Source: an uncultured Candidatus Competibacteraceae bacterium (lineage in GTDB: Bacteria > Pseudomonadota > Gammaproteobacteria > Competibacterales > Competibacteraceae). Taken from it: a stretch of DNA of 40,306 nucleotides. The translations under genes were made by a program, and so were the position numbers. Position 1 is the first letter of the stretch. Each line of letters starts with the position of its first letter. The stretch covers positions 1 through 40,306 of the forward strand of contig CAIRMO010000088.1 in the NCBI GenBank assembly GCA_903879705.1, written 5' to 3'. The notes under the pieces are model-generated. The model saw only the letters and a program-made list of their open reading frames with translations, did not search any database and was not told the DNA's origin. This document shows, piece by piece, positions 11,983 through 33,493 of this stretch.

Positions 11983-12000
11983 AGTTATGAGGATAACGTC

Positions 12001-12552
12001 ATGATCATTGCAGTGATTGCGCTGGGATTATTGGCTGGCGCATCCGGCCTGCTGTTGGGATTCGCCGCCATCCGGTTCAAGGTGGAAGGCGATCCAATGG
12101 TCCAACAGATCGATTCGGTGTTGCCGCAAACCCAGTGCGGGCAATGCGGTTATGCCGGCTGTCGGCCCTATGCCGAGGCGATTGCTGCGGGCGAAGCTGA
12201 TATTAACCTTTGTCCGCCGGGTGGGCAAAACGGGATTACCGCACTGGCGGAATTATTAGGCCGTGATCCTAAATCACTGGACCCGGCCAGTGGGATTGAG
12301 AAACCGAAAATGGCGGCGGTGATCGATGAGCAACGCTGTATCGGCTGCACCCTGTGCATTCAGGCCTGTCCGGTCGATGCCATTATTGGCGCGGCTAAAC
12401 ACATGCACACGGTCCTTGTGGGGGAATGCACCGGCTGTGAACTCTGTCTGGCCCCGTGTCCGGTGGACTGCATTCAAATGGTCCCGTTTGCGCCGACAGT
12501 TACCACCTGGAAGTGGACTTATCCCGTGGTTGAAGTCAAAGCAGCCGCATGA
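12001..12552 (+). CDS. rsxB: RNF/RSX complex subunit B (ferredoxin-like)
   Basis: Iron-sulfur subunit carrying electrons within the RNF complex. An N-terminal membrane helix (about residues 1-25) is followed by a [4Fe-4S] domain with CGQCGYAGC. Two ferredoxin-type clusters come next, [12 protein letters not shown] and [20 protein letters not shown] lies just before ATG 12001. Length (183) is close to the E. coli protein (192). The stop overlaps the rsxC start (ATGA), pointing to translational coupling. Confidence 0.97.
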
Positions 12553-16521: not shown

Positions 16522-17787
16522 ATGACAGATACTGCCGGCCAGTACGAACAGAGGCCAGATACGGTGAAAATGCCGAATCTTCTCGTCAAAAAAGTAAGAC
16601 GCCAGTCCGCCGGCGTAGCAAAAAAACCCTATCCTGCCCTGTACTTTGACACCGCCGCTACGACTCGGGTCGCGCCGGAAGTTGTCGCGGCGATGGTCGA
16701 ACAGCTTAACAGCGCCGACGGTTATGCTAATCCCTCCTCAACCTCGCATCAACCCGGTCAGGCTGCCGCTGCTATAATTGCCAAGGCGCGTGCTGACATC
16801 GCCACTGAGTTGGGTTGCAAGCCTGATGAGGTCATTTTTACGTCCGGCGCAACTGAGGCCAATAACCTGGCGTTGCGAGGCGTGGCCTTGGCTCATGCCG
16901 CGCAGGGTCGCCATCTGGTGGTTTCGGCGATCGAACATCCGGCAGTGCTGGCCGGCTGTGACGCCTTGCAACGTGAGGGCTATGCAATCACGCGGGTCGC
17001 GCCGAATCGGCAGGGCTGGATTGAACCGGAGGCCGTCGCTCGTGCTTTACGGCCTGAGACATTACTTATTTCCTTGATGCACATTAATAATGAAACCGGG
17101 ATGAAGCAGCCGCTGGCCGAAGTAGCGGAACTGGCGCTCGAAGCCGGGGTGCTATTCCATGTTGACGCCGCTCAGTCTGCCGGAAAATTTAAAATTGATT
17201 TGCAACACGTTCCCATCGATTTTCTGGCATTGTCGGCACATAAATTTCATGGGCCAAAGGGGGTGGGATGTTTAGTGATTCGCAATCGTCGTCGTCTTCG
17301 ATTGCAACCGCTGCTGTATGGCGGCGGTCAGGAATTTGGCCTGCGTCCTGGCACCTTGGCGACTCATCAAATCATTGGCTTGAGTGCAGCGCTGACCTTG
17401 GCGGCGACTCGGCGCGAGGCTGATTTAATTCATATTGCCGGGTTAAAACATCAGTTTCTGGAACAATTGGCGTTGTGCTTGCCGATTCAGGTGCATGGCG
17501 ATCTGGCACACGGTTCGCCGTATATTGTGAATTTGTCGATTGCCGGGATCAGCAGTGCGGCACTGATCAATCAACTGGCGGAAGAACTGGCGATTGCTTC
17601 CGGCTCGGCGTGTTCATCCGGCGCGATTGAACCGTCTCCTGTGTTGCGGGCGATGGGGATTGAAGGCGAATTGCTGTACAGTGCAATCCGGGTCAGTTTT
17701 AGCCGCGACCACTCTGCTGTTGAAGTGGCGTTGGCAGTGGATCGAATTGTGGCGGCAGCGCAACGAATGCGAGAGTTGGATCAATGA
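16522..17787 (+). CDS. sspA: cysteine desulfurase, SspA/DndA-like
   Basis: PLP-dependent enzyme that removes sulfur from cysteine as a persulfide, here presumably feeding DNA phosphorothioation. The fold-type I core starts at YFDTAATTRV (about residue 42). PLP lysine is Lys241 in SAHKFHG and the catalytic cysteine is Cys364 in GSACSSG. The ~40-residue basic N-terminal extension is not in IscS; ATG 16570 (MPNLLVKK) is an alternative start. Location at the head of an sspB-sspC-sspD-like row, and absence of iscU/iscA genes, favour SspA over housekeeping IscS. It begins 17 bp after rsxE and its stop overlaps the next start (ATGA). Confidence 0.88.
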   Translation: MTDTAGQYEQRPDTVKMPNLLVKKVRRQSAGVAKKPYPALYFDTAATTRVAPEVVAAMVEQLNSADGYANPSSTSHQPGQAAAAIIAKARADIATELGCKPDEVIFTSGATEANNLALRGVALAHAAQGRHLVVSAIEHPAVLAGCDALQREGYAITRVAPNRQGWIEPEAVARALRPETLLISLMHINNETGMKQPLAEVAELALEAGVLFHVDAAQSAGKFKIDLQHVPIDFLALSAHKFHGPKGVGCLVIRNRRRLRLQPLLYGGGQEFGLRPGTLATHQIIGLSAALTLAATRREADLIHIAGLKHQFLEQLALCLPIQVHGDLAHGSPYIVNLSIAGISSAALINQLAEELAIASGSACSSGAIEPSPVLRAMGIEGELLYSAIRVSFSRDHSAVEVALAVDRIVAAAQRMRELDQ

Positions 17788-18680
17788 AATTAAACCCGGA
17801 AAAAACCACTTTTGGCCGCCATGAAACCTTTCCGTTGCGTTATGGCTGGTTGACCAAGGGGTTTGCAGCGGTGCAGCAAAACCCCGCAATTTTTAGCCAG
17901 CCTGAATCCGCTATGGTGGTTTTAGGAGTGGGACGGAATATGGTGAATGCTATCCAGTATTGGCTACGAGTCACTGGGGTAGTAGATTTTAATGAAGGCC
18001 CAGCGATGCCGACGGCTTTGGGTAATGTATTGTTGGGTGCGGCGGGCGATCCTTATTTGGAAGATGAAGCAACATTGTGGATCATTCATTGGCTGATTGC
18101 GTCCAATGCTGAATTAGCCACCGGGTTTTTCTGGTTTTTTAACCGATTTACCGCATCGCATTTTCAGGAGTCGGAGGCATTGCAGGCGCTGACTGAGTTT
18201 GCTGCTAATGAACTGAATATGCGCCGCGCCCAGACTACGCTGAAATCTGATCTATCGACATTATTGCGAATGTACGCGCCCATTGCCGGCCGTAGTGAGG
18301 AGCATCTGGATTCGCCATTGGCGCAGTTGCACTCAGTTGAAGCGCAAACTGGACGGCAATATCGGAGTCTGCGGATGAACCGGCCTTTTTTACCGCCGAT
18401 TGCGCTGCATTTTGCGTTATTGCAGCGGTTTGCTGCTGAACCACGCCAACCGGCATTACCCATTCGCAGTCTGTTGTCCGGCGGCGGTGACTGGGCGGCG
18501 GTAGGAGCCGTTTTCCGGTTAAATGAGGAAGGATTGATGAATCATTTGGCGCGGGTGATCGAGCATTATTCGCAGTGTTATGAGTTGCGCGATACTGCTG
18601 GAGTGCATCAGCTTTATTGCGGTGGTGAGGTTGTTGATCCATTGGCGGCATTGCGGGCGCATTATGGGAATGGGGCGTAA
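17784..18680 (+). CDS. sspB: DUF4007 protein, SspB-like
   Basis: DUF4007 family protein of 298 residues. The family signature is clear: FGRHETFPLRYGWLTKG at the N-terminus, then GRNMVNAIQYWL, and PYLEDEATLWIIHWLI. In Ssp systems the DUF4007 protein SspB is the DNA-nicking component needed to insert sulfur. Its order here (after the desulfurase, before a large ATPase and a PAPS-reductase-like enzyme) is that of sspABCD. It overlaps sspA by 4 bp. A 362-bp gap with repeats and a toxin remnant separates it from sspC, breaking an otherwise tight operon. A second, diverged member of the same family lies at 32597. Confidence 0.85.
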   Translation: MKLNPEKTTFGRHETFPLRYGWLTKGFAAVQQNPAIFSQPESAMVVLGVGRNMVNAIQYWLRVTGVVDFNEGPAMPTALGNVLLGAAGDPYLEDEATLWIIHWLIASNAELATGFFWFFNRFTASHFQESEALQALTEFAANELNMRRAQTTLKSDLSTLLRMYAPIAGRSEEHLDSPLAQLHSVEAQTGRQYRSLRMNRPFLPPIALHFALLQRFAAEPRQPALPIRSLLSGGGDWAAVGAVFRLNEEGLMNHLARVIEHYSQCYELRDTAGVHQLYCGGEVVDPLAALRAHYGNGA

Positions 18681-18837: not shown

Positions 18838-19038
18838 CACCGAATTACTTCGACCATTCGGCATATTCCAAGCAAGGTAATTCTGAATTTGGAAGAGGGT
18901 ATGCCAAAAACCTGTGCTATTAATCTCGACCATGTTCAAACTGTAACCAGGAATAAGGTCGGAACTTTCATAACTACTTTGAGCGATCAACGTATGGATC
19001 AAGTTAAAGCGGCGCTCTTTTTTGCTCTCGGTTTTTGA
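18838..19038 (+). pseudogene. C-terminal remnant of a MazF/PemK-type toxin
   Basis: An open frame of 66 codons after a TAG at 18835 reads ITSTIRHIPSKVILN, then INLDHVQTVTRNKVGTF, and ends RMDQVKAALFFALGF before TGA at 19036. This is the pattern of the C-terminal half of MazF/PemK mRNA interferases (NLDHVQT, final LSxxRMxxVxxALxxALGF). The N-terminal half with the first beta strands and catalytic arginine is missing, so it is probably inactive. A 45-codon sub-frame begins at ATG 18901. It ends just before the sspC start, so it may now only contribute upstream sequence for sspC. Confidence 0.65.
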
Positions 19039-19042
19039 AGTG

Positions 19043-22000
19043 ATGACTATTCAAAGTGTCAAGAGCTTAGCCCAACACATTAAAATCCGCACGGCCTACA
19101 CCCGTTCGATTAACTTGCCGCGTGATTATCAGACGCTGGAGTTGATTCAGGCGTATGTGCCGACGTCGCGGGCGATTCAGGCGCTTGAACAGATTGCCGC
19201 CGGGTTAGGGAAACAGGCCAGTCAACGGGCTTTGGCGTTAATCGGACCCTATGGATCGGGAAAATCGGTCTTTGCACTGTTTTTGGCGGCTTTGTTATCG
19301 CCGGCGCGGAGTCCCGCGTATCAGATGGCGATAGCGAATTTGCATGAAGCTAACCCGGTTTTGGCCCGACAGTTTGGGGCGGAACGAATGGGCGAACACG
19401 GGTTTTTGCGGGTGCCGGTGAGCGGGATTCCCGATTCGCTGGTTCGGCAATTATTGCTGGCCTTGGCCGGGGCGGCGGAACAACAGCATGAGTTTACCAA
19501 AGCCGAAATCGCCGAATTGCGGGCGGCGGCGCAGCCGGGTACGGCATTGGATCAAGTGGTGGCGCTGATTCGCCGGACGCAGCAACTTTGGGCGGTTATG
19601 GGCGGTACTGGATTACTGATTGAGATTGATGAGTTAGGCAAGTTTCTGGAGTACGAGTCCTATCATCCGCAGCACCGGGAAATTCATTTACTGCAATTGC
19701 TGGCGGAAGTTGCGCATGAGGCGCATTCCGCACCGTTGCATTTAGTGGTGCTGCTACATCAAGCTTTCGAGTATTACAGCTATCGGTTAGGAAAGCATCT
19801 AGGTGATGAGTGGCGGAAGGTGCAGGGTCGGTTTAATGCGATTGCTTTTTTGGAGCCGGCTGAACAGTCGCTTCGCATTATTAGTGCGGCATTTGAACCA
19901 GGTGAGCCATTGCCGGATCGGGTGATGGCGCAATTGGATCGGTGGCTAATCGTTTTAGCAACGACCGGGGCATTGCCGCCCGGTCTGGATGAATTTGGAG
20001 CCAGAAACCGGTTTAGCCGCTGTTATCCGTTGCATCCACTGACCTTGTTGATTCTGCCGGTGCTTTGTCAGAAAATTGCTCAGAATGAACGCACTCTGTT
20101 TTCTTATCTGGGCAGTGATGAGGCATTTGGTTTGCAGAGGCGTTTGGCGGGAATGCAATTGGGCGATTGGGTTGAGCCGTGGGAGATTTATGATTATTTT
20201 ATGCTGAATGGAGCCGGTGGTTTTTCTGATGCGTTGACGGAGCGGCGCTGGGCTGAGGTCATGACGGCGCTGGAACGATTTGGTAGTTCACCGGATGATC
20301 CGGCAGTGCGCTTGTTGAAAACCATAGGCTTGCTGAATCTGATTGGGGCACAACGCGGGTTGAAGGCGAGTCTGGTAGTGTTGGAATTACTGTTCGGGGC
20401 GGCGGTTAGTGAGTGGCTGGAACTGTTGGAAACGGGATCGATTATTCATTTTCGCCATTACAGTGAGGAGTATCGGGTCTGGCAGGGCAGTGATTTTGAT
20501 TTGCCCAGTGCGATTCAACAGGTTATGGCGGAACAGGCGGCAGTGCCATTGGTGGATACGCTGAATCAATGGGCACCACTAAAACCGGTGGTGGCCCGCC
20601 GGGTGAGTATTGTGACGGGTGCTTTACGTTGTTTTATGCCGGGATTTACTGATGCTGCGCGCTGGTCGGCGTCGCAGAACAATCATCGGGATACAAATGC
20701 TCATCTCTCCCCTTTGAAAAAGGGGGGCGGGGGGGATTTAGCAGATTCGTTGCGCTTGTTGTTTTGTCTGGTGGATGAAGCGGAGTTGCCGGTTCTGAAC
20801 TCGGCATCGCCGCAGACGGTAGTGGCGTTTTGTTCATTTGCCGAGCAGTTGCGTAAGACTGTTGGGGAGTGGCAGGCATTGCAAGAATTGCCAGTGCGTC
20901 ATGCGGCGGTGCTGAATCATGATCCAGTGGCACAGCGTGAGTATCGTGTTTGGCTGGAACATGCCGAAATCGAGGCGATGCAATTGATTCGGGCGATATT
21001 GGATGAGCCGGAGTCACTGCGCTGGTTTTGGGCGGGCGAAGAGCGGGCAGTGCAGAATCGGCGTGATTTGCAGCGGCAGCTTTCGAGTTGGGTTGAGGAG
21101 TATTGTTATCCCGAAGCGCCGTTGATTAGCAATGAACTGATTAACTGGGATCGGCCTTCGCCGAGTGCGAATACCGGGCGCAAGCGTTTATTGGTGGCGA
21201 TGCTGAATGCGGCGGATCAGGACGATTTGGCCATTCAGAAAAGTCCGGCGGAAAAGAGTCTGTATTTGTCATTGTTGAAAGCCAGTGGTTTGCATCGACG
21301 CGAGGGTGAACGGTTGGGGTTTTATCCGCCGCCAGAGGCCGATCCCTGCCGGTTTCGCCCAGTTTGGGAGGGCATAGCGCGGGTGTTGGGCAATGGCAGT
21401 AAGCGCCAGATCGCGGTGACAGCGCTTTATGCGGTGTTGCGGCAGCCGCCTTATGGGGTCAAACTGGGGGTATTGCCGGTGTTGTTGGCCGCTTATTTAT
21501 TGGCGCACCGCCGTGAAGTGGCGCTTTATCAGGAGGGTGGTTTTTGTGAGGAGTTGACGCTGGAACAGGTTGAGTTGCTTTGTCGTCGGCCTGAGTTGTT
21601 TGCTTTGGAGCGCTTTGAGTTGGGCGGTCTGCGTGGCGAGTTATTTGATCGTTATCTGCGTTCGGTGGTGGGTAAGGTGCGGGAAGACGCTACCCTGTTG
21701 GATATTGTCCGGCCACTGGTGCGGTTTGTATCCGGGTTGCCGGAGTATACCCTGCATTGCCGAGGTTTGAGTCGTGAAGCAGAGCGGGTGCGGGCGGAGT
21801 TTCAGCAGGCTAAGAGTCCCGGCGTATTGCTGTTTGAGGCGTTGCCAGAGGCATGTGGTATTGCGCCGGCTGATTTTATGGCGGGCGATGCGGCGGTAGT
21901 GGAACGGTTTATTTCGCATTTGGTTCAGGTGTTGCGTGAGTTGAAGCAGGCCTATGAGAAATTGCTGGAACGCTGGCAGTCGCTGTTAAATCAGGCTTTT

Positions 22001-22525
22001 CTCGATGAGTCGATTATCGACTTGGGGCGGTTGCGGTTGGCATTGGTGAAACGTTATGGCGATCTGGATCGGTATACGCCGGATCGGATGGGATTGGGGG
22101 CGTTGATTCGGCGGTTGGCGGATGCTGGCTATGCCTCGGATCAGGCGTGGCTGGAGTCGGTGGCGACGTTGTTGGGGAGAATGCCACCGCAGAAGTGGCG
22201 AGAAGAAACTCGACTTCAGGCTGAGTTGCGTTTGTATGAAATGGCGGAGAAATTGCGTGATTTGGAGAGGTTGCGGATGGCCGCGCCGGAAGGGAGTCAG
22301 GTTGAGGGCGCTTTGTTGGTGAAGATGGTTGATTCGCATCGCGGTGAAATTAGCCGGGTGATTCAGCTTTCGAGTATTCAACGAGAGTCTGCAGCCGTCA
22401 GTGCGGCGCAGATTGCCGGTGGAATGATTGAACTGGATGAGTCGGTGCAATGGGCAGTAGTGGCGGCGCTTTTAGAACGGCTTTCGCTTAATTCTAATAA
22501 ACCACAGGGGGTTAAAAATGACTGA
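19043..22525 (+). CDS. sspC: large P-loop ATPase, SspC-like
   Basis: ATPase of 1160 residues, cytoplasmic. Walker A GPYGSGKS is at residues 68-75; Walker B IEIDELGKFLEYE has Asp196-Glu197. The rest is helical and poorly characterised. Position between the DUF4007 gene and the PAPS-reductase-like gene matches SspC, the ATPase of Ssp phosphorothioation. The frame is open from 19022 (TTG), but ATG 19043 is preferred; the ribosome site is weak. The 3' end overlaps sspD by 8 bp. Residues near 545-570 are encoded by an inserted palindromic repeat. The same DELG(K/R)(F/Y)LEY Walker B occurs in the 1492-residue ATPase at 33529, showing the two are relatives. Confidence 0.82.
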   Translation: MTIQSVKSLAQHIKIRTAYTRSINLPRDYQTLELIQAYVPTSRAIQALEQIAAGLGKQASQRALALIGPYGSGKSVFALFLAALLSPARSPAYQMAIANLHEANPVLARQFGAERMGEHGFLRVPVSGIPDSLVRQLLLALAGAAEQQHEFTKAEIAELRAAAQPGTALDQVVALIRRTQQLWAVMGGTGLLIEIDELGKFLEYESYHPQHREIHLLQLLAEVAHEAHSAPLHLVVLLHQAFEYYSYRLGKHLGDEWRKVQGRFNAIAFLEPAEQSLRIISAAFEPGEPLPDRVMAQLDRWLIVLATTGALPPGLDEFGARNRFSRCYPLHPLTLLILPVLCQKIAQNERTLFSYLGSDEAFGLQRRLAGMQLGDWVEPWEIYDYFMLNGAGGFSDALTERRWAEVMTALERFGSSPDDPAVRLLKTIGLLNLIGAQRGLKASLVVLELLFGAAVSEWLELLETGSIIHFRHYSEEYRVWQGSDFDLPSAIQQVMAEQAAVPLVDTLNQWAPLKPVVARRVSIVTGALRCFMPGFTDAARWSASQNNHRDTNAHLSPLKKGGGGDLADSLRLLFCLVDEAELPVLNSASPQTVVAFCSFAEQLRKTVGEWQALQELPVRHAAVLNHDPVAQREYRVWLEHAEIEAMQLIRAILDEPESLRWFWAGEERAVQNRRDLQRQLSSWVEEYCYPEAPLISNELINWDRPSPSANTGRKRLLVAMLNAADQDDLAIQKSPAEKSLYLSLLKASGLHRREGERLGFYPPPEADPCRFRPVWEGIARVLGNGSKRQIAVTALYAVLRQPPYGVKLGVLPVLLAAYLLAHRREVALYQEGGFCEELTLEQVELLCRRPELFALERFELGGLRGELFDRYLRSVVGKVREDATLLDIVRPLVRFVSGLPEYTLHCRGLSREAERVRAEFQQAKSPGVLLFEALPEACGIAPADFMAGDAAVVERFISHLVQVLRELKQAYEKLLERWQSLLNQAFLDESIIDLGRLRLALVKRYGDLDRYTPDRMGLGALIRRLADAGYASDQAWLESVATLLGRMPPQKWREETRLQAELRLYEMAEKLRDLERLRMAAPEGSQVEGALLVKMVDSHRGEISRVIQLSSIQRESAAVSAAQIAGGMIELDESVQWAVVAALLERLSLNSNKPQGVKND
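20709..20736 (+). repeat. palindromic repeat inserted in-frame in sspC
   Basis: CCCCTTTGAAAAAGGGG forms a short palindrome followed by a G-rich run (GGCGGGGGGG) and ATTTAG. It is translated in frame as SPLKKGGGGDL without a stop. Composition differs sharply from the flanking coding sequence and resembles the CCCCTCCTT/AAGGAGGGG repeats at the window start. Confidence 0.65.
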
Positions 22526-23303
22526 TAAACTGCAAGTTAAACCTGTTCGTCATCTGTTGGGGTTGTCTGGGGGGAAAGACAGTTCGGCGCTGGCAATTTA
22601 TCTACGCGATAAAATACCTGAGATGGAATATTTTTTTGCAGATACCGGCGCTGAGTTGCCGGAGACCTTGGAGTTTGTTGATTTGTTGGAAGATTATCTT
22701 GGAAAGCCGATTGTTCGGTTGAATGCCGGGCGGGATTTTGATTATTACCTCAAGTTGCATAATAACTATTTGCCTTCACCTGGACAAAGGTGGTGTACCA
22801 TTAATCTTAAATTGATTCCATTTGAAAACTTTATTGGTGATGATCACGCAATATCTTACATCGCAATTCGAGCGGATGAACCTGATAGGTCTGGTTATAT
22901 CTCCAAAAAACTAAACATAAAAACCTGCTTTCCTTTTAAGGATGATGGGCTAATAAAAGATGACATTAAAAATATACTAGAATCTTCTGGTTTGGGGGTT
23001 CCAGATTATTATAAATGGAGAAGTCGATCAGGTTGTTATTTTTGTTTTTTTCAAAGACAGGAAGAATGGATTGGATTAAAAAACAATCATCCTGATCTCT
23101 TTGATAGGGCTAAAGAATATGAAAAAGTTGACCCGTTATCTGGGAAAAAGTACACATGGAATCAAGCAGGAACGCTCGATGAATTATTATTGAAACCGAG
23201 AAAAGAAAAAGCGGTTAAGTTGAAAAAATCTAAAAAACTAATTGATAATATTTTAGATGATGAGAACGATTCTGATGATGGCTGTTTGATTTGCACTCTT
23301 TAA
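22518..23303 (+). CDS. sspD: PAPS-reductase-like PP-loop enzyme, SspD/DndC-like
   Basis: ATP-pyrophosphatase of the PAPS reductase family, expected to adenylate the DNA backbone and deliver sulfur. The PP-loop SGGKDSS is at residues 17-23. RWCTINLK follows near 91-98. Cys93, Cys173, Cys176 (SGCYFC) and C-terminal Cys256/Cys259 are candidate ligands of a [4Fe-4S] cluster like that of DndC. At 261 residues it is about half the size of DndC and nearer to SspD. AGGGGG precedes ATG 22518, which overlaps the end of sspC. The gene is clearly more AT-rich than sspA-sspC, hinting at a different origin. Confidence 0.85.
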   Translation: MTDKLQVKPVRHLLGLSGGKDSSALAIYLRDKIPEMEYFFADTGAELPETLEFVDLLEDYLGKPIVRLNAGRDFDYYLKLHNNYLPSPGQRWCTINLKLIPFENFIGDDHAISYIAIRADEPDRSGYISKKLNIKTCFPFKDDGLIKDDIKNILESSGLGVPDYYKWRSRSGCYFCFFQRQEEWIGLKNNHPDLFDRAKEYEKVDPLSGKKYTWNQAGTLDELLLKPRKEKAVKLKKSKKLIDNILDDENDSDDGCLICTL

Positions 23304-23306
23304 AAA

Positions 23307-25682
23307 ATGGAAAATATATCAGATTTATTTGCTAAAGTAAGAGTTTATATTAAGGGAAATAAGCCATTTCTTCACAAGCCTATTTTGCTCATGTATGCTC
23401 TTGGACATTGTTATAATAAAAAAGAAAGAATGATCTCTTTTATTTCTATAGATAAAGCGATAAAGCAACTCTTTTTTCAATTCTATCCCTTTGGTTTGGA
23501 GGCAAATAACACACATTACCCCTTTGGAAAACTAGAGAATGATAAGTTGTGGGAAGTAGAAAAAAGTGCAGAATTAAAAAGGACCCGTGTCGGACATTTG
23601 CTAAGAAGTGAGCTTCTCGAAAAAAACATTCATGGAGGTTTTACTCAACAAGTTTACCAAAAACTTGTGACAGATAAGGGTTTAATTATGACAATCGCAA
23701 ACCAGATTCTCCAAGATTACTTTCCATTAGAACAGCACGAAGCTCTACGCACGGCTGTTGACTTACCACAAAAAATAACATCGACTTCTGATGAATCTAT
23801 AGTCCAGGATTTTTCTGGAATCTACCAAAATAAATGGAATGCCGAAGCAATAAGAAAAAGAGAGGATTTTATGGAAACGCAACGAAATGATTTTATTGCC
23901 TATGTAAACTCACTTCACAACTTGGGAGCTGATGGTGCTAATGCCTTGGCAGAATCACAAGCCCTTAATCGCTATTTTGTAGAGCTATACGAACCATTCC
24001 CATTAGTTGATATTGTTGTGCAAGCATTAACTGATTATCAAGATCGAGTAGTTGTATTAACCGGCCATGCTGGCGATGGAAAGTCGACTGTTGCTTTAGA
24101 TGTTCTAAAGCAGTTGCGTGGGCTTCCTGCTAATGAACCATTAGCCCATGCGGTCAATGAGCTTGAAATTGTGCAATGGCAAAATAATCACCAATATAAA
24201 ATAGTTTCTATCGTTAAAGACATGAGTGAACTGACTGCTAAAACTCGCCTGGAATGGATTCAAAAGGCATTCAACCGCAATGAGTCAGGTAGTTGGCTGA
24301 TTGTTAGCAATACCGGCCCCTTATTAAATACCCTAGCCGAATTTTGCCGTCATATTCCGGGTGATATGGAGAGCCAAATTCTGCAACGGTTAGACCAATC
24401 ATATAGCGGTGGCGATCTGGATCAGCATACCCTGAGCCAATTTCCTAAAAATCTGGTCATTTTTAATATGGCCCGGTTAGATAATATCGCCATCGGTGCT
24501 AAATTGCTAACCCGACTGGTTAACCACTCAGGTTGGCAACAATGCGTTGGGTGTATTGCGGTGCCCACTTGCCCCTTGTTATTAAATCAACAGACATTAA
24601 AAGCCGCCAAGGTCACTGTCGAAAATCGGGTGCGCTGGATTTATCAGCGATTAACTACTTATGAACAACGCCTAACTCTGCGACAAATGGTTGCTCATCT
24701 TGCCCTGAGTTTAACTGGAGGCATGAGTTGCGAGCAAGCTAAACAACACGTTGCGTTATCCAGTGCCGAAGGAATAGGCAAAGACATTGATGGCTTGGAG
24801 CAGATTATTTTTAGCGAAGGATTTTTTGGCTACCGTAAAGGCCAACCTTGGCGCGAGGCTGAAAGCCTGCGGGCAATTGCATTAATCAGGCGGCTGGTTT
24901 TTGGTGGGCCAGTGGCTGTCAATTTTGAGCGGCAATTATCGGTTAATACCGGGATAGGTTGGGCGCAATTACCAGAGACGCTTTCTGGCTTAAATCAATG
25001 CTGGCAATCTTTAGCCAGTGAATCAGTAGGTGTGCGTTGGCGATTTGCCCAACGCCGCATGATTTACTTGTTTGGGGAATCAACACCCCACGCTGAATCC
25101 AGTGCAGCTATTTTCTTGGACAGCTTTTTACAATCACCACACCTGCGTAATTTCGATCAATGGCAATGCGATGGTGGATTTTCAACTTTCAGTGCTACTG
25201 AGCAACGTAAATTCTGCAAAGTATGCCTGCGCGTATTACTGGAAATCTTTTCCGGTTTTAGTGCAGGTCAGTTTCAATCTTATCAAGATCGGCTTTACCT
25301 AACACTGCGTCGTCCTGACCGGGCAGTAGTTCAGCCAACACAGTTAGTGATTGTAATACTGGGGTTTCATCAGTTTGATCTGTATTATGATCCAATACGC
25401 CGGTTACCTTTGTTGCGCTTTAATGAAGGGAAAGTAGTATTGGAATTAACCTTGCCGCTGCTTGACTATATTCAAAGGCGTCATAGTGGAGAACTGGGCA
25501 GTGATTTGGCGCGTATTCATTTGGCTCAATTAGAATGGTTTCGTTCTGAGTTGCTGCGGGTGAATCAAAAAAAACAGCAGGATTTAACAGAGATCGGATT
25601 ATTGCGGGCCGGTATTGATGGACAGGTTCATTTTTACCGGTATTTTCTGGATGAAAAAAATCAGCGATTGGAGCGTGAATAA
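23307..25682 (+). CDS. sspF: SBD-DptF fusion, SspF-like restriction component
   Basis: Two-part protein of 791 residues. Residues 1-145 resemble the sulfur-binding domain of ScoMcrA-type PT-dependent nucleases: HKPILLMYALG, then HYPFGKLENDKLWEV (residues 70-84), then HGGFTQQVYQKL and QILQDYFP. Tyr71-Pro72 sit where the sulfur-contacting Tyr-Pro lies in ScoMcrA. Residues from about 215 form a DptF/DndF-like P-loop domain with GHAGDGKST (253-261) and a cysteine cluster Cys413, Cys416, Cys422. I infer that the N-terminal part reads PT marks and the ATPase controls restriction. It starts 3 bp after sspD and overlaps the next gene by one base. It has no visible nuclease motif of its own. Confidence 0.78.
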   Translation: MENISDLFAKVRVYIKGNKPFLHKPILLMYALGHCYNKKERMISFISIDKAIKQLFFQFYPFGLEANNTHYPFGKLENDKLWEVEKSAELKRTRVGHLLRSELLEKNIHGGFTQQVYQKLVTDKGLIMTIANQILQDYFPLEQHEALRTAVDLPQKITSTSDESIVQDFSGIYQNKWNAEAIRKREDFMETQRNDFIAYVNSLHNLGADGANALAESQALNRYFVELYEPFPLVDIVVQALTDYQDRVVVLTGHAGDGKSTVALDVLKQLRGLPANEPLAHAVNELEIVQWQNNHQYKIVSIVKDMSELTAKTRLEWIQKAFNRNESGSWLIVSNTGPLLNTLAEFCRHIPGDMESQILQRLDQSYSGGDLDQHTLSQFPKNLVIFNMARLDNIAIGAKLLTRLVNHSGWQQCVGCIAVPTCPLLLNQQTLKAAKVTVENRVRWIYQRLTTYEQRLTLRQMVAHLALSLTGGMSCEQAKQHVALSSAEGIGKDIDGLEQIIFSEGFFGYRKGQPWREAESLRAIALIRRLVFGGPVAVNFERQLSVNTGIGWAQLPETLSGLNQCWQSLASESVGVRWRFAQRRMIYLFGESTPHAESSAAIFLDSFLQSPHLRNFDQWQCDGGFSTFSATEQRKFCKVCLRVLLEIFSGFSAGQFQSYQDRLYLTLRRPDRAVVQPTQLVIVILGFHQFDLYYDPIRRLPLLRFNEGKVVLELTLPLLDYIQRRHSGELGSDLARIHLAQLEWFRSELLRVNQKKQQDLTEIGLLRAGIDGQVHFYRYFLDEKNQRLERE

Positions 25683-27244
25683 TGACTCAAAAAGACAGCA
25701 GTAAAATCGACTTGACTGGAGTATTTACCCGTTTTCCTGCCAGCAGTGAGGAAAGCGAACTCAAAGCGGATAAAACCAATCCAGCCATTCGGCTTTATGG
25801 ACGACGTTTTTACAAGGATCAAACTCCCGTCGAATATCTAGCAGAATTTCTGCTGGTTTTTGCATCACCGAAAAATGACAAGAATGATAATACTACCAAC
25901 GGAACTTATCAATTAAGAATTGATACGAATAATGCAAAGATTCCCCGTTATTATCCTCAGGATCGGGTGGCACTAAAACTGTTTGCCTTTTTTCCATCTT
26001 CCAAACTGGAAACCCGCCATCCAGTGCATCGTCTAGCTTATTTAGATGCCCTAGAATTAATTAAGGAATGTCTGACTGATTCTACTGATGAAGATAAAAA
26101 TGAGACCATACGGTTGATTCAGAGTCTGTTTAATGGATTCGTTGGAGTTGCTAAAAATCGTACTTGGGCCACCCATAGCTTTTTACCAGTTTCAACGGTT
26201 TTTTTGGCTAGAGAATTAGACTGGTTACAGTCTAAAGCAATAAAAGACTCAGCACTAAAAAATTGGTACGATGCCGACCAGTATTTTACCGGAGATCGCC
26301 ATAACTTTATGGCTAGAGGTGGTGAACTGCTTTTTCTACAATTAGCTAATTTATTTTCTGAACCTGACGCTCCGCCTGAACTGTTTGAACTTTGTAACCG
26401 ACTACAGAAAGAATTATATAAAATGCTGGAGGAAGCTATAGGATCAATTGGAGGATTAGTCCGATTCATTGAAAATAAATTGGAAAAATATAAGATAAAT
26501 TCCATAAAGCCCTATGCAAATTTAGGTTGGGTTCCGTTAGCAAGTTGCACCGAAGCTCTGCTTTTTGCTAAAGAAATGGATAATATTTGTATGTCTACCT
26601 TGGGTTCATTAGAAAAACTTGATTTACTACAAACCCTTTGTTGTATGCAAGTTCTGCGCAGTCTTTGTTTTCAAGCGCGTCGGGTTGACAACACAGAAAA
26701 ACGCACTGTTGGTTTTGTCGGTCAATATTCTTGGATAGTTACTGATCCTGAAGCTAAAATTCATACGCCAATTCATCAAATGGCGCAGAACTCATTTAAT
26801 GATATAGAAGCTATGCTTTATCGGGTTTTAAGGAAAAAAGAGATTTTAGATCTTAATATAAAATTTAGTGTGGCTGAAGGGGATAAACACGGATTCAAGA
26901 TTTTCCGTAAAATCGCTAAAGAAATCGGTTTAGTCATTCCAAAAACTGGCAGTGGTCAACGCTTTACTTTGCATCAAGGTTTATTGCGTTTTCTGGTTGC
27001 TGCACTCATCAAGCCGGGCGAAAGAATACGCCTGACCCACTTTTATCAGCGAGTTTTTTCCCACTACGGCATTGCGCTTGGTGGACAAGAACTAGCGATT
27101 GCTCTAGCGTGGAGTGGCAACGAATCTGGGGGAGAAAGCTATACCATTTCTGCAAATACAGCCTGGATTGAAGAAGCACTACAACAAGGCGGCTTTCTCG
27201 TTGAATTATCGGATGCCGTATCCATTGTACATAACCCTGGATAA
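25682..27244 (+). CDS. DptG-position protein, SspG-like
   Basis: 520 residues, soluble, with no motif I can name. It lies between the DptF-like and DptH-like genes, the place of DptG/DndG in Dnd restriction loci and SspG in Ssp loci; size is comparable with DptG. The start overlaps the previous stop (TAATG). Seen features: a charged N-terminus, a low-complexity patch NDKNDNTTN near residue 63-71, mainly helical middle, and a C-terminal part (about 420-520) that may be a winged-helix-like region. Naming by position only; I could not establish homology by eye. Confidence 0.6.
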   Translation: MTQKDSSKIDLTGVFTRFPASSEESELKADKTNPAIRLYGRRFYKDQTPVEYLAEFLLVFASPKNDKNDNTTNGTYQLRIDTNNAKIPRYYPQDRVALKLFAFFPSSKLETRHPVHRLAYLDALELIKECLTDSTDEDKNETIRLIQSLFNGFVGVAKNRTWATHSFLPVSTVFLARELDWLQSKAIKDSALKNWYDADQYFTGDRHNFMARGGELLFLQLANLFSEPDAPPELFELCNRLQKELYKMLEEAIGSIGGLVRFIENKLEKYKINSIKPYANLGWVPLASCTEALLFAKEMDNICMSTLGSLEKLDLLQTLCCMQVLRSLCFQARRVDNTEKRTVGFVGQYSWIVTDPEAKIHTPIHQMAQNSFNDIEAMLYRVLRKKEILDLNIKFSVAEGDKHGFKIFRKIAKEIGLVIPKTGSGQRFTLHQGLLRFLVAALIKPGERIRLTHFYQRVFSHYGIALGGQELAIALAWSGNESGGESYTISANTAWIEEALQQGGFLVELSDAVSIVHNPG

Positions 27245-27262: not shown

Positions 27263-30200
27263 ATGAATCTGTTTGTTGAAAGTCTGGCCAACCACATTAA
27301 AAACGAATGGGATCAGGCGCTCACTGCTGCCAACGGAACCCATGAAGTCCGTTTTATTGTTGAAAGCCTTGATCCACACAGCGTATTTAACCTCTTTTCT
27401 ACCCTCAATGAACATCGGCTTCACTACCTGCAAAACCATAAAATTGAATGCCATTTTCGTGTGGCTTACGGCTTGTGGCAGGATTGGCTCAGGACACAAA
27501 ATCCTCAACAACTCACCAATGCAATGATAAACCAGCATGGAAGCCAAGCAGCAGAACAACTCCAGCAATGGATTGATAAGGAAGACCGCCTCACCTGGTA
27601 TCGCAACCGCACTCTCCAGAATGGCAGCGACGGTCTGGTTGTCGTTCTAATTGGTCTCAATCACGCCTCTGACCAAGGTGGGTTAGCCGATTTTCATCAA
27701 GTTGACGAACAACGCATCTGGCAAAATCTGCAAAACAACTTCCATCCGTGGATTCGCCGCCTTAACGAGCGACTGGCACTTGAAGCCACCGAAACCGAAA
27801 TAACCTACCTCAACAGCCTCATCCTTCAACTGTTCCAAATCTGTCCACGCGGCCTTGCCAAACTGGCTAAATTTCTCGAAATGGAAGTCATTGCCGGCAG
27901 TCACAATCTCTGCACTATGGATGAACTCATTCAACGCTTCTATGCCAAACTGCCTTTCTGGGGCATTCCCCCACTACTCAGCAATGCTGCAAAAACAACT
28001 AAAAACAAGACCAAAAAGCAGACTGAATCCCTCAAAGAGGCTGGAATTTTTATCTCCCACCAGAAGTTTAAAACCCCCGGTGAGCAAAAAAAAGTATGGA
28101 GTAAACTTGAACAGGCTTTTGACCAACATAATCTGGAAATTCCAGAATGCACCAGCTCAAAACCACTCTATAGCAACCTTAAAGAATTCAAGGAAACCCT
28201 GCGTCTTTTTATCTTTAGCGCCGACGCTACTGCCCGCGAACAATTGCTGCAAACCGACTTAGGGCCGGTGCTAGAGATTCTCAAGAAAAAACCCACGGAC
28301 CCAAAACCAAAAACAGACAAAGTACAACGCCTGTCAGGTTTTAGTCTCGATATACTGCTACAAGCCCTATGGAAAACCTTGGTCGAATTCAAAGCTCAAG
28401 GCAATGGCCAGCCGCTCTTTGAGCGACTCTACCGAATCGATATCACCTTCAAATGCTTTAATCACGACCTCGAAGCCAATGATGAAACTGGTGTTGGCGG
28501 TGAACAACAAGCACGCGAATGGCTGCGTGGCTGTCTTGGCGGATTAACCGAATGGATCCAACAAATCGACTGCCGACTACCGATTGACCACGACCAAATT
28601 CAGCAACCCCAAGATCAATGGGAACGAGTCATCCCGATCAACCTTGATTTGGACTCAATCACTTTCAGCACCAGCCGTTCAAATCCCCACCTGCAATTTG
28701 AAATCCGTATTGAAACTCAAGATGGCACCAACGAACTCAAGCAGCAGTTCCGCTGGGCATTTGGCCCCACTCAAGCCGAACGTGTCCGCCATGCCTGCGC
28801 TAAAACGGTCTTGGAGCGGTGGCAAAGCCTAGTTGAAGAAGGATTAATCCTGCCCGCCTTCCAGATACCCACCGTAATAATGACCGCGTTCTATTTTGCT
28901 GCTGACCACGATGAAGCCCAGCGTCTTATCAGTCAGGCGCTCACTGAAATGCGACTAACCAATCTGCTCACCGGACTACCCGCCACAGCGACAGACCAGG
29001 AACTTCGGCAATCTTTAATTCAGCTCATCGCAACCTATCATCAATGGTTAAAATGTACTGTTGAAGAAGGCTATTACCATGCCATCAGCTACCGCCGCTA
29101 TAGCCCACTATTACATAGCTACCTTGATTTAGCCAAAAAAGTTCTCGACCCCCAACGACTAGGTAGTACCGAATTACTGCGCCGCTTCTATAAAGCCTTC
29201 CTGCTGATTGATGAAAAAGCCCAACCGAATGATCACTATTTAGCTGCCGCCATTGTTTGGGGCCTCAGTCCGCCAATGATTGAACTCACCCAAGCCCGTA
29301 CCTGCTTTCTACGCGACAGCTTTCCTAAAATTGTTGCCGAACTGGCGCTCAATAAAAACAGCGAAGCGGCGTTTTCCCAACTCCTGAACCTGACCGAAAT
29401 TCACCGACCATTAGCCGGGCTGGTCATTGATACACAGCGCACCCTATCTGCCGCAATTAAATCCTTTGGGCTGCTTCACTACCTTGGCGCAAAACCTACC
29501 GCCGGAAAAAGCCTGGCAGTACAAACCCTGCTACGCGACGAAGAAAGCGATGACGACGAAGACATTGCTGATTTAGTCCGTCCTAGCGAAGAAAGCATCA
29601 TGGTTGAGCGGGTACTGATGGATTATCAATCGCTCTATCCATTTGCCGAAGACGGACTACGCATTCTAGCGGTACATATTAAAGAACTTGCCACAATATT
29701 ATCAGGAGTTAATCGGTTTTTAAATAATTATCTGAAACACACTACTAATGATTGGCCGCCTTTTCACTGCGAATTAACCGTCTACTCCACTTCCTCTTCA
29801 CCCTTGGCAATGGAGAGCAGTTTAGCCGCTTGGTGCAACACCATTACTGAAAATTACCGCGAAAAAGGCCGAGCGCTGATTTTAACCGTTAGTCATCGCT
29901 TCGCCATGACCCGTGAACAGATAATCGAATTGATTCACCGGGAACGGCGTCTTTATGACATCGCATTTCTCTTTCATTTTCTCGCCGGCGAACTCACCGG
30001 CGAAACTGAACCGGCGCTCCCCTTTGAATTCGACTTTAACACCAACAACATCAGTCCGTTCCCCATCTGCGAATATCCACGCCCCATTCAGCATGGCGAC
30101 GCTTTCCGCCGTCAAAGCCTGCTAAGTAATCGCCGCCTGCAAATTCAAACCTGCCATGCAGATCTATCAGCCCGCCTGCGTCACTCACAAACCTCCAGCA

Positions 30201-32596
30201 ATGAAAATCTAATTTTCGGCCAGATTGACTACCAGCCGTGGCAATTAGTGGTCGAAGCCCTGCACGGCAAAGCGCAATGGGTAGCCTGTATTGACCCCTT
30301 TGTGGACAAACGGCTAATTGGCCGTCACGACCATCATAGCCAACGCAAGATCGTCGGTTTTACTTCCGGCCTCGGTGCCTATGGCGAATTGAATCTGTCG
30401 ATTTCCACTGAACAGGACACCCTTACCCAACTGACCGTCTTGGTAAGAAACCATTTAGCCAGACTCATGCCCTTTCAACTAAGCGACGGCTTTGAAGCGA
30501 TGGCCGCTAAAGTCGTCAGCGAGGCCGAGGAAATTATTGGCCTGTCATCACTGCGAGCAGTCGTCGGACAAGGTGAAAAAATTCGGGAAGTCGTCGGATT
30601 CGCCGCCATTCGCCGCGCTCTGGCCACACCACCCGCTGTTATGTCGCAACTGCTACCGATTGACGCCCTGTTGCATTGGTTTGCCGGCAATGAAACTACT
30701 CAACGCCCTGATTTGCTGCAACTATCGCTAATTCTGCGTGATAACGATTTACCACTGATTCAGGCGGTAGTGATTGAATGCAAATTCGCGCAATACAACC
30801 CGGCTCATCTACTCAAGGCCAGCGATCAAGTTCAACAAGGTCTCAGTCATTTGACTCAGCTCTTGATGCCCAATCAACCCGATCTACAGCGAGGCAGTTT
30901 TGACCGACGCTATTGGTGGGCGCAATTACAACGGGCGCTGACTTCCCGTTCAGTAGTGACCGGGTCAGAACAAAATCATCGTCAATTAGATCGGGCACTG
31001 GAACGTCTGACTCAAGGTTATTATGAAATCGCTTGGCAAGGCGCAATTTTTACCTTCTGGACTGATATCGCGGGCGCAACCCCAGTAATAACCGCTATGT
31101 CATTGCCCGCAGGAGTCATTGAATCGTCAATTTGCGTACCCGATCAATTTGCAATTTGGCATATTGCATTAGGTTACGAAGGAGTTACCGCCCTCTTTAT
31201 CGGCACTCCTCCACCGGAAGCACTAACCTTGGCCGGACCCGCTATCCGGGCAAGAACATCCATCACGGTTGAAAGGGCACCGCCGATAACTACAAAGGCT
31301 TCCCTTACCGAACAACTGCTCATAACTTCTCCGCGCCTACCGGAGTTAGAACCATTATTAACTACCCTTCCTGATCCGGTCATCACCATTAACCCTATTG
31401 CCCCTTTTATTACTAAAAATTTACCAAAATTTAATCTGGTGCCCATACCCATATCTATACCAATCCCAATCAGCACTATTCCTGAACAGATTTTTATTGG
31501 CATGCGCAGTAATGGCGAACCGGTTTATTGGCACTACGGTCACCCCCAATTACTCAATCGTCATTTATTGATTTTTGGCGCAGCGGGTTCTGGAAAAACT
31601 TACGGTATTCAATGCTTGCTGACCGAAATGGCTAAACAGCAATTGCACTCAATTATCGTCGATTACACTGACGGTTTTCTGCCGCAACAAATCGAGCCAC
31701 ATTTTAGAGAAATCGTCAAACCGCAAAATCATTTCCTTATTACTGATCAATTGCCATTGAATCCTTTTCGTCGGCAAAAACAGATTATTGATCCCTCCGT
31801 CCCGGCCATTGAAGAAAAGCCATTTCAAGTCGCCTCGCGTATCGCCAGCATTTTTACATCCGTCTTTGAAACTATGGGCGATCAGCAATCCTCAGCACTG
31901 ATTCGGGTATTGGAAGCCGGGATTGAGGAAGACCCGAAATTTTCTCTTGACGGCTTGCTGGCGTTGCTACGCGATGACAGTAGTTATGGTGAAAGTCTGG
32001 CCAGCAAACTGGAACCACTGATCCGGTCGCAACCATTCCGGTCCGGTACCGATTCTGCTTGGGAAAGCATGCTCAATAGCGCTGACCACAAGGTACACGT
32101 CCTGCAATTAAAAGGATTGGCGCGAGAAATTCAGCGGCTGGTAACTGAATTTGTGCTGTGGGATCTCTATGACTATGTCTGCAACTCCGGCAATAAATAT
32201 CGTCCGGTTCCGGTGGTACTGGATGAAATTCAGAACCTCGATCATCGTAGTGACTCGCCCATCGACAAAATGCTGCGGGAAGGTCGCAAATTTGGTCTGT
32301 CGATGATTCTAGCAACGCAAACGACCAGTCAATTTGATCAGGAACAACGCGACCGGTTATTTCAGGCCGGCCATAAACTGTTTTTTAAACCGGCAACCAC
32401 TGAAATTGACCGGTTCTCTCAGTTGCTCAGTCAATCTACCGGCATCGCAAAAAGTGAATGGAGTGAGCGACTGGCTAAACTGGAAAAAGGCCAGTGCTGG
32501 TCACTGGGATCAGTGAAAACCTCCAGCGGAGGATTGCAGGAAAAAGCCGTACTGGTGTCGATTACTGCGCTTGAACAACGCACATTGGATTGCTGA
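27263..32596 (+). CDS. sspH: DptH-like HerA/FtsK ATPase with nuclease-like motif, SspH-like
   Basis: Very large protein (1777 residues). The C-terminal ~350 residues form a HerA/FtsK-type motor: Walker A FGAAGSGKT (1438-1446), Walker B PVVLDEIQNLD with Asp1654-Glu1655, and LSMILATQTTSQF after it. This is the layout of DptH/DndH. Before it, residues 1160-1191 read DND...VVIECKFA...SDQVQQ, which fits a PD-(D/E)XK core (Asp1160 or 1162, Glu1172, Lys1174, Gln1189). I infer a nuclease fused to a DNA-translocating motor, the likely DNA-cutting part of the restriction arm. The N-terminal 1100 residues are unassigned, with an acidic patch (DEESDDDEDI) near 753-762. AGGAT lies eight bases before ATG 27263. 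The next gene begins immediately after its stop. Confidence 0.78.
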   Translation: MNLFVESLANHIKNEWDQALTAANGTHEVRFIVESLDPHSVFNLFSTLNEHRLHYLQNHKIECHFRVAYGLWQDWLRTQNPQQLTNAMINQHGSQAAEQLQQWIDKEDRLTWYRNRTLQNGSDGLVVVLIGLNHASDQGGLADFHQVDEQRIWQNLQNNFHPWIRRLNERLALEATETEITYLNSLILQLFQICPRGLAKLAKFLEMEVIAGSHNLCTMDELIQRFYAKLPFWGIPPLLSNAAKTTKNKTKKQTESLKEAGIFISHQKFKTPGEQKKVWSKLEQAFDQHNLEIPECTSSKPLYSNLKEFKETLRLFIFSADATAREQLLQTDLGPVLEILKKKPTDPKPKTDKVQRLSGFSLDILLQALWKTLVEFKAQGNGQPLFERLYRIDITFKCFNHDLEANDETGVGGEQQAREWLRGCLGGLTEWIQQIDCRLPIDHDQIQQPQDQWERVIPINLDLDSITFSTSRSNPHLQFEIRIETQDGTNELKQQFRWAFGPTQAERVRHACAKTVLERWQSLVEEGLILPAFQIPTVIMTAFYFAADHDEAQRLISQALTEMRLTNLLTGLPATATDQELRQSLIQLIATYHQWLKCTVEEGYYHAISYRRYSPLLHSYLDLAKKVLDPQRLGSTELLRRFYKAFLLIDEKAQPNDHYLAAAIVWGLSPPMIELTQARTCFLRDSFPKIVAELALNKNSEAAFSQLLNLTEIHRPLAGLVIDTQRTLSAAIKSFGLLHYLGAKPTAGKSLAVQTLLRDEESDDDEDIADLVRPSEESIMVERVLMDYQSLYPFAEDGLRILAVHIKELATILSGVNRFLNNYLKHTTNDWPPFHCELTVYSTSSSPLAMESSLAAWCNTITENYREKGRALILTVSHRFAMTREQIIELIHRERRLYDIAFLFHFLAGELTGETEPALPFEFDFNTNNISPFPICEYPRPIQHGDAFRRQSLLSNRRLQIQTCHADLSARLRHSQTSSNENLIFGQIDYQPWQLVVEALHGKAQWVACIDPFVDKRLIGRHDHHSQRKIVGFTSGLGAYGELNLSISTEQDTLTQLTVLVRNHLARLMPFQLSDGFEAMAAKVVSEAEEIIGLSSLRAVVGQGEKIREVVGFAAIRRALATPPAVMSQLLPIDALLHWFAGNETTQRPDLLQLSLILRDNDLPLIQAVVIECKFAQYNPAHLLKASDQVQQGLSHLTQLLMPNQPDLQRGSFDRRYWWAQLQRALTSRSVVTGSEQNHRQLDRALERLTQGYYEIAWQGAIFTFWTDIAGATPVITAMSLPAGVIESSICVPDQFAIWHIALGYEGVTALFIGTPPPEALTLAGPAIRARTSITVERAPPITTKASLTEQLLITSPRLPELEPLLTTLPDPVITINPIAPFITKNLPKFNLVPIPISIPIPISTIPEQIFIGMRSNGEPVYWHYGHPQLLNRHLLIFGAAGSGKTYGIQCLLTEMAKQQLHSIIVDYTDGFLPQQIEPHFREIVKPQNHFLITDQLPLNPFRRQKQIIDPSVPAIEEKPFQVASRIASIFTSVFETMGDQQSSALIRVLEAGIEEDPKFSLDGLLALLRDDSSYGESLASKLEPLIRSQPFRSGTDSAWESMLNSADHKVHVLQLKGLAREIQRLVTEFVLWDLYDYVCNSGNKYRPVPVVLDEIQNLDHRSDSPIDKMLREGRKFGLSMILATQTTSQFDQEQRDRLFQAGHKLFFKPATTEIDRFSQLLSQSTGIAKSEWSERLAKLEKGQCWSLGSVKTSSGGLQEKAVLVSITALEQRTLDC

Positions 32597-33493
32597 ATGA
32601 TGACGCCGATGTCCAATAAAACTGAATCGCTACCACTCAATTTCCCCCAAACTTTTTTACCAGAACGACGGTTATTGGCGAAATTATTGCCGTTCGCCGC
32701 CAAAAAGGGTAGCGGTGATAAAGAGATAATTAGCGCCGAAACTGGCATTCCAACCGGCAAAAGTACCGGCAAAGTCGATCCCATCATTCGCTATGCACAG
32801 GGCATGAATTTAGTCATAGCCAAAAAAGCGGAACGTGGAATCTGGCAGTTGCGCCTGACACACACTGGACAGGTCATCTTGCGAGAAGATGCCTTTCTCA
32901 GCGAGCCACAAACCTTATGGTTGCTGCATCTGATGCTATGTCGCCGCTGTGAATTAACGACACCAGCCAGAGGTATTGCTGATGCCTGGTTTGCACTGTT
33001 TGGTAATAGCAATTTTCGCTTGGGTCACCGTTTTCATCAGGCCGACTATATCACTTTTATGCAAGATCGACATGGCGATGAAAATAAAGGCTATCTAAAA
33101 TCGCTCGCTAGTGTGGTCTTGCGTAGCTATCTGGAAGAAAGCTGTCTGGGAAGCCTAGCGGTATTGCAGCAGGAAAAATCGAGGAAAGAGCCGGTGTTTA
33201 CCCGGCAAAGCGCCTCGACTGAAAAGAGTTTTTTTCCAGTCTATGCTGCTGGATTTTATCAAGTCTGGGATAAACTATTTTCCGGAGAGACGCAACTTGC
33301 GCTGACTGATTTTTCTGCACAAAGCGGTTTCTTTAATGTTTTAAGCTGGGATGAAGCCACGGTTATGCGCTGGCTGGAATGGATGGTTGATCAAGGCTTG
33401 ATTCAGATGGATCGTCATACCGGAACCGCCATGCTGCTGCGTTTATGCGAGACGGAACTCGTGATTGACCAGATTTATGAGGAATTGATTTAG
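32597..33493 (+). CDS. second DUF4007-like protein (SspB paralogue)
   Basis: 298 residues, the same length as sspB. The order of landmarks follows DUF4007: FLPERRLLAKLLPFA at the N-terminus, then VDPIIRYAQGMNLV, LRLTHTGQVIL and AFLSEPQTLWLLHLML, matching sspB's GRNMVNAIQYWL and PYLEDEATLWIIHWLI. Overall identity is low, so it is an old duplicate or a separate acquisition. Its ATG directly follows the sspH stop, with a second ATG at 32600. It is followed by a large ATPase related to sspC, so the sspB-sspC arrangement recurs. Role unknown; it may be a nicking or DNA-binding partner of that ATPase. Confidence 0.7.
   Translation: MMTPMSNKTESLPLNFPQTFLPERRLLAKLLPFAAKKGSGDKEIISAETGIPTGKSTGKVDPIIRYAQGMNLVIAKKAERGIWQLRLTHTGQVILREDAFLSEPQTLWLLHLMLCRRCELTTPARGIADAWFALFGNSNFRLGHRFHQADYITFMQDRHGDENKGYLKSLASVVLRSYLEESCLGSLAVLQQEKSRKEPVFTRQSASTEKSFFPVYAAGFYQVWDKLFSGETQLALTDFSAQSGFFNVLSWDEATVMRWLEWMVDQGLIQMDRHTGTAMLLRLCETELVIDQIYEELI

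Follow-up and report, generated by a model that had tools for sequence, protein, structure and literature searches.

SspABCD-SspFGH operon

The window, the 40,306-nt stretch of DNA analysed here, is the forward strand of CAIRMO010000088.1 (assembly GCA_903879705.1) from an uncultured Candidatus Competibacteraceae bacterium. It encodes an SspABCD-SspFGH phosphorothioate (PT) restriction-modification operon on the + strand, and an rnfE-like gene at 15788 precedes the operon start. The following genes were identified, with sspF placed after sspD and before sspG and sspH:

16522..17787, + strand: sspA, cysteine desulfurase (PADLOC SspA, E 4e-132)
17784..18680, + strand: sspB, DUF4007 (Pfam DUF4007, E 2.2e-72)
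19022..22525, + strand: sspC (PADLOC SspC, 1208.7 bits)
22518..23303, + strand: sspD, PAPS-reductase-like (PADLOC SspD, E 1.2e-104)
23307..25682, + strand: sspF, 791 aa, predicted sulfur-binding domain (SBD), linker and SspF ATPase core (intact ORF, ATG start)
25682..27244, + strand: sspG (PADLOC SspG, E 3.5e-22)
27263..32596, + strand: sspH, with a HerA/FtsK-type C-terminus (PADLOC DndH, E 2.4e-59, residues 1408-1697; SspH, E 6.3e-21)
32597..33493, + strand: second sspB-like gene, DUF4007 (Pfam DUF4007, E 1.1e-8)
33529..38007, + strand: second sspC-like gene (PADLOC SspC, E 1e-15)

Genes labelled sspB-like and sspC-like both occur 3' of sspF in 54 of 67 related loci with at least 9 kb of downstream sequence, a count that takes in two loci (L041 and L068) where both labels belong to the modification genes instead. 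At 38051-40306 of the window is an ORF that is still open at the contig end, with a weak match to Pfam Methyltransf_23 (E 2.9e-5, below the family cut-off).

Domain organization of SspF

The SspF protein is predicted to comprise the following parts:

23307..23777, + strand: SBD, residues 1-157
23778..23876, + strand: linker, residues 158-190 (predicted disordered, pLDDT < 50)
23871..23873, + strand: in-frame ATG at codon 189, a speculative internal start (usual SspF start position; GAGG 5 bases upstream)
23889..25679, + strand: SspF ATPase core, residues 195-791 (best PADLOC SspF match at E 3.4e-26; core alignments)
24063-24086, + strand: Walker A motif GHAGDGKS, SspF residues 253-260

An earlier note on this DNA had assigned residues 1-145 (23307-23745) to the PT-recognising domain of ScoMcrA-type nucleases on the basis of a run of sequence landmarks. 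These landmarks are present (HKP at residues 23-25, YPF..L.ND..WEV at 71-84, GGF at 110-112 and FP at 139-140) and the domain type was correctly recognized, whereas the structural borders are wider, at residues 1-157. The NCBIfam model NF045808 (PT-DNA_restrict, PT-DNA-binding restriction endonuclease) aligns SspF residues 4-155 with its positions 3-154 of 284 (E 6.6e-26); this match, at 91 bits, is under the family cut-off of 180 bits and does not extend into the HNH part that forms the second half of the model. The PADLOC mREase_IV model matches residues 11-139 only. A phmmer search of the PDB with residues 1-167 recovered the SBDs of ScoMcrA (5ZMO, E 4.8e-7) and SprMcrA (7CC9, E 6.4e-4), and a 17-member profile matched 5ZMO at E 1.3e-15. 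Pfam at E ≤ 1 reports no SBD or HNH family in the window SspF; what it lists are weak P-loop matches beginning at residue 233 and a Reelin repeat at chance level.

The structural comparison that the earlier note had suggested returned the fold of an SBD. An AlphaFold2 model of residues 1-159, built from a 37-member alignment, has a pLDDT of 94.2 and a pTM of 0.89. When it was searched against the PDB with Foldseek, ranks 1-16 were all SBD-containing chains (ScoMcrA, SprMcrA and Hga), the ScoMcrA-type SBD being matched at E 4.1e-10 and TM 0.82, and rank 17 was an unrelated regulator at E 0.08. VIA placed the modelled residues 1-157 on 5ZMO 94-251 with Z 22.1 (1.8 Å over 154 residues); scores were 18.4 for 7CC9 and 13.3 for 8H0L (SBDHga), and unrelated chains did not exceed 9.0. 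From profile matches and predicted structure, we assign SspF residues 1-157 as an SBD. Chance similarity to an SBD was considered and ruled out by the profile, the fold and the conserved pocket described below.

A full-length SspF model (38-member alignment; pLDDT 87.2, pTM 0.73) retains the SBD, with Z 19.5 to 5ZMO. Confidence is low at residues 158-190 and order resumes from residue 195, so the SBD is predicted to be tethered to the ATPase rather than built into it. The distance from the SBD match to the point 60 residues before the P-loop ranges from 16 to 72 residues among 35 distinct SspF genes that carry the SBD and encode less than 1000 aa, a set from which the split gene of L032 is set aside and in which one genome is present under two locus ids. 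The earlier note had described the ATPase as DptF-like. SspF is the better name, as five PADLOC SspF models match it, starting at model positions 35-52 (residues 229-243), and no PADLOC DndF model does so at E ≤ 0.1. Comparison of the core with known structures gave weak ORC/Cdc6-like matches (Z about 9), and no fold was assigned.

The ATG at codon 189 would allow a shorter product. Among 16 ScoMcrA-like members, a Shine-Dalgarno-like motif accompanies 9 of 20 ATGs in the region of the usual SspF start, versus 95 of 628 other in-frame ATGs of SBD-bearing sspF genes (p 0.0018); the comparison is post hoc, its criterion is lax and the members include close relatives.

Sulfur pocket and base-contacting loop

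Alignment with the ScoMcrA SBD places the putative functional residues as follows:

23373..23378, + strand: pocket residues H23 and K24, equivalent to ScoMcrA H116 and R117 (structural-alignment offset 93-94; sequence alignment of HK on HR)
23517..23522, + strand: pocket residues Y71 and P72, equivalent to ScoMcrA Y164 and P165 (YPF aligned on YPF)
23529..23531, + strand: K75, at pocket position A168 (sequence alignment)
23586..23600, + strand: residues 94-98, corresponding to base-contacting loop S187-R191 (sequence alignment)

Across 45 related domains, the pocket residues are among the best conserved of 158 positions (H23 ranks 2, P72 4, K24 5, K75 9 and Y71 21), and the base-contacting loop is variable, with ranks of 86, 65, 58, 37 and 54 for residues 94 to 98. 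SBDs are likewise reported to combine a conserved sulfur pocket with a variable base loop (PMC6224610), and the same pattern here supports the SBD assignment. K24 is kept in all 43 domains with that column filled and H23 in 39 of them; of all 45 domains, 43 retain P72 and 22 retain Y71, with Tyr at this lid position in 17 of the 18 domains of the ScoMcrA-like group. At residue 97 (23595-23597), a base-contact position, the ScoMcrA-like group splits between His (11), Asp (6) and Glu (1), perhaps reflecting two target preferences.

Mutational data reported for ScoMcrA (PMC6224610) show that P165N and R117A/G abolish PT binding and that R117K causes no appreciable loss. The same source reports binding of hemi-PT DNA by the ScoMcrA SBD, as a one-strand mark requires, and describes A168 as less conserved. 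The Y164 lid is variable in the family. No domain among the 45 has Ala at the K75/A168 position, and in the SspF domains of L023 and L027 H23 is replaced by Tyr and P72 by Ala. The replacement of A168 by K75 and the loss of the proline in L023 and L027 count against a PT-reading role. The pocket of SprMcrA is reported to include Tyr31 and Gln32 (PMC7470945), which in our own reading occupy the positions of ScoMcrA H116 and R117, indicating that the H-K pair is not obligatory.

Distribution of the fusion and two SBD subfamilies

SspF relatives were collected in one scan of the genome_contigs collection with an SspF alignment, by way of one search pattern at the Walker A region. The best 80 of 272 relatives were used, a sample biased towards the window's kin, and every reading frame of 80 aa or more was then searched for SBDs with iterated profiles. 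An SBD lies N-terminal to SspF in 43 of the 80 loci, counting the split L032, and is fused to it in 42; no other frame of that length in these loci carries one. This recurrence rules out a frameshift or false start joining two genes in the window. It also answers the survey of homologues that the earlier note had called for, and its impression that canonical DptF is not known to carry such a domain gives way to a fusion that is not exceptional, all the more as PMC10853773 lists a 'wHTH' N-terminal to DndF. In a less biased sample, the 369 genomes from the same class as the window, an SspF core was matched in 4 (the window's own, G305, G120 and G242), of which 2 have the SBD. An E. coli collection (DNA search) and a phage collection (protein search) yielded no match. 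An SBD census with NF045808 over 398 genomes was set aside, as most matches listed hit the HNH half.

The 37 SBD-less loci include L057, with a broken SBD in another frame, and L051 and L056, which are cut at the contig edge. The window SspF is 791 aa long, compared with about 600 aa expected of short SBD-less forms. Short forms (571-704 aa) lack the SBD except in L032 and L057, where it is in a neighbouring frame, and the P-loop of short SBD-less proteins starts at residue 60-96, apart from L079 (residue 194), where the start is perhaps misplaced. In L032, the SBD (10004-10570) and SspF core (10575-12368) are in adjacent frames 4 bases apart, reflecting either a split gene or an error in sequencing. 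Eight SBD-bearing SspF proteins are much longer, at 1485-1542 aa (L043, L045, L047, L049, which is cut at its start, L052, L061, L065 and L074). In the three of these scanned with Pfam (L043, L061 and L074), NERD and kinase domains lie between the SBD and the core. Median SspG lengths (540.5 and 523) show no shift with the SBD.

The 45 domains comprise 18 of ScoMcrA-like type, including that of the window (17 from SspF and one from an SspB-like protein), and 27 others. A profile built from 23 of the 27 hits SBDHga, whose structure with PT-DNA is known (8H0L), with E 2e-37; a comparison between the two groups gives a match probability of 96.9%. The groups are separate in a tree of 50 SBDs (support 100/99 and 99/99), whose eight type IV SBDs, none of them Hga-like, fall closer to the group of the window. 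The tree is compatible with one common origin for the fused SBDs as a whole (AU p 0.42). On the SspF core tree, the presence and absence of the SBD requires 9 changes with L051, L056 and L057 labelled SBD-less, a labelling that may inflate the count.

The SspB-like case is in L096 of genome G249 (8707-10086), where an SBD is fused to DUF4007/SspB and is sister to the SspF SBD of L020 (support 99/85). Its neighbours are an SspC/BrxC-like ATPase, PglZ and BrxL; sspB, sspC and sspD lie close by. In G249 the search reported no SspF core, and the SspH match covers only the ATPase part, in a 509-aa frame. Judged by its gene content, this arrangement is a type-4-BREX-like arm with a putative PT reader. 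The available text of a study of BREX, PMC12839542, includes no SBD under that name.

PT-modification genes beside SBD-bearing SspF

At least two of sspB, sspC and sspD are upstream in all 33 SBD-SspF loci with at least 4 kb of upstream sequence, the window included. This is the main argument on polarity, as it indicates that PT is self in these hosts and makes a reader of self marks sensible. Gene context thus predicts that PT means self for the SBD-SspF reader, unlike for the SBD-HNH nucleases; PMC7461809 puts at under 3.6% the share of predicted PT-dependent SBD-HNH enzymes that may be close to dnd clusters. In the 11 SBD loci with less than 4 kb upstream, sspD is in the locus in five and elsewhere in the genome in two, and was not found in four (L021, L062, L066 and L067; in L021, the 1.9 kb before sspF is occupied by other reading frames). 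These four count against a PT-reading role.

In the first comparison, at least two of these genes were upstream in 33/33 SBD loci versus 22/37 SBD-less loci (p 1.4e-5), counted over loci with at least 4 kb upstream, the window and the four plasmid loci L012-L015 among them. A genome-level recount found PT genes with 34 of 34 SBD-SspF and 32 of 36 SBD-less SspF (p 0.11), and a paired test on the tree, with 5 independent pairs, gave a median p of 1. As sspD is elsewhere in the genome or record for 11 of 15 SBD-less loci without upstream sspBCD, the contrast is mostly one of gene order. With these results, and with the SBD of L057 broken in another frame, we dropped the idea that SBD presence tracks PT genes.

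Predicted function of the SBD

In the mechanism that we propose, SspA-D would put sulfur into host DNA and the SBD would dock on the resulting PT marks, with the sulfur in the H23/K24/Y71/P72 pocket. Binding would report 'self' to the SspFGH complex, and a bound SBD would hold back ATP-driven translocation and nicking, such that unmarked DNA alone is attacked. PT binding by the window SBD is very probable. That binding restrains rather than stimulates restriction is a step about which we are less sure but which we consider likely, and the proposal as a whole, a flexibly linked SBD that reads the PT self mark and restrains SspFGH, is one that we moderately favor. In Vibrio anguillarum, SspFGH harms PT-less cells and is relieved by SspBCD but not by DndBCDE (PMC8092258), and PT is said to repress the DndFGH ATPase (PMC11662687, citing earlier work); both point to PT as a restraint in FGH systems.

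The earlier note had expected the domain to explain self/non-self discrimination, possibly through inhibition of restriction on modified DNA. A direct PT reader is consistent with an SBD that has a conserved pocket, is in frame with SspF and is in the company of PT genes in 33/33 loci; as a general basis of discrimination the idea does not hold, since SBD-less SspF is common. Searches with ScoMcrA-like and Hga-like profiles found no SBD in any of 12 genomes with SBD-less SspF, with a positive control (7 of 7 known carriers recovered) for the ScoMcrA-like profile only. Apparently SspFGH can discriminate without an SBD, and the domain would be an added or alternative reader rather than one required in every SspFGH. 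PMC10853773 interprets the N-terminal domains of DndF as co-effectors and suggests DndG as the PT discriminant; the co-effector interpretation counts against our proposal. The same study reports that only a fraction of sites carries PT in DndFGH systems.

Restraint is not the only polarity with precedents, as PT stimulates the NTPases of SspE and DndI (PMC11662687). The SBD could then be a PT-dependent activator or loading dock, with SspFGH assembling and switching on at host PT sites before attacking unmarked DNA elsewhere, and the modelled flexible tether (linker pLDDT < 50) would suit such recruitment. We consider this unlikely because V. anguillarum SspFGH, whose SspF may or may not carry an SBD, harms cells that lack PT and is tamed by the mark (PMC8092258), so its activity does not need PT. 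Slightly less plausible again is a plain winged-helix contact to DNA or protein that no longer reads sulfur, with PT read elsewhere, for example by SspG. The suggestion of DndG as discriminant and the naming of the SBD as a wHTH (PMC10853773) would fit this, as would K75 at the A168 position and the 37/80 loci with SBD-less SspF (L057, L051 and L056 being read as above); the pocket His, Lys and Pro, however, are among the most conserved residues of the domain, and the fused domains fall in two SBD subfamilies with PT-DNA structures.

SBDs guide HNH nucleases to PT-DNA (PMC6224610), and sequence preferences differ among SBD homologues, such that the SBD of SspF might be a type IV arm that directs SspFGH to foreign PT-DNA of another sequence context for destruction. 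This is highly improbable: the host has sspA-D in the operon itself to mark its own DNA, the window SspF lacks any HNH match (Pfam, E ≤ 1), and PT-modification genes are upstream in every one of the 33 loci with enough upstream sequence.

Under our preferred reading, in which the SBD reads PT as self and restrains SspFGH, changing one pocket residue (P72N or K24A) would be expected either to unleash self-restriction or to disable it. The location of the SBD on the ATPase subunit, together with pocket mutants already characterized in ScoMcrA, makes self-recognition by FGH systems directly testable. A broader idea, which we put forward tentatively and hold somewhat doubtful, is that the SBD is a portable 'self' reader borrowed by PT defence arms (SspF, in two subfamilies, and, in one genome, the DUF4007/SspB-like subunit next to PglZ and BrxL), that its output there spares PT-DNA where it makes HNH nucleases cut it, and that a possible start at codon 189 would provide both reader-bearing and reader-free SspF.

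Comparison with known systems

The gene set sspA/iscS-B-C-D-F-G-H is shared with the SspABCD-SspFGH system of V. anguillarum FF-93 (PMC8092258). A Walker A motif is reported for the SspF of that strain, and the words 'SBD' and 'domain' are absent from the main text of the report. Rakesh et al. 2024 (PMC10853773) describe wHTH, NERD, tandem kinases and other domains N-terminal to the DndF core, and equate the SBD with the wHTH. The window SspF shares an N-terminal wHTH with these DndF fusions, in which it also precedes NERD and kinase domains, as in L043, L061 and L074. In the relevant sections of that study, the DndF wHTH is not called an SBD or PT reader; the SBD-SspF fusion has thus probably been seen before but not interpreted.

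The window SBD shares its fold, domain length and the H-K/R and Y-P pocket of ScoMcrA with the ScoMcrA/SprMcrA SBDs (5ZMO, 7CC9). It differs from ScoMcrA in its base loop (RVGHL instead of SRGRR), in having K75 in place of A168, and in its fusion partner, an SspF ATPase of a PT-modifying host rather than SRA/HNH. SBDHga (8H0L) shares the fold (Z 13.3); among solved structures it is closest to the second group of domains fused to SspF (E 2e-37), whereas the window domain is in the ScoMcrA-like group. Of 14 records of plasmid relatives of SBDHga, 12 are annotated as HNH endonucleases. Compared with PT-dependent type IV SBD-HNH endonucleases, the window SspF has no HNH match and sspA-D are directly upstream of it. 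One reader may have opposite meanings, 'cut' in the SBD-HNH enzymes and probably 'spare' in SspF.
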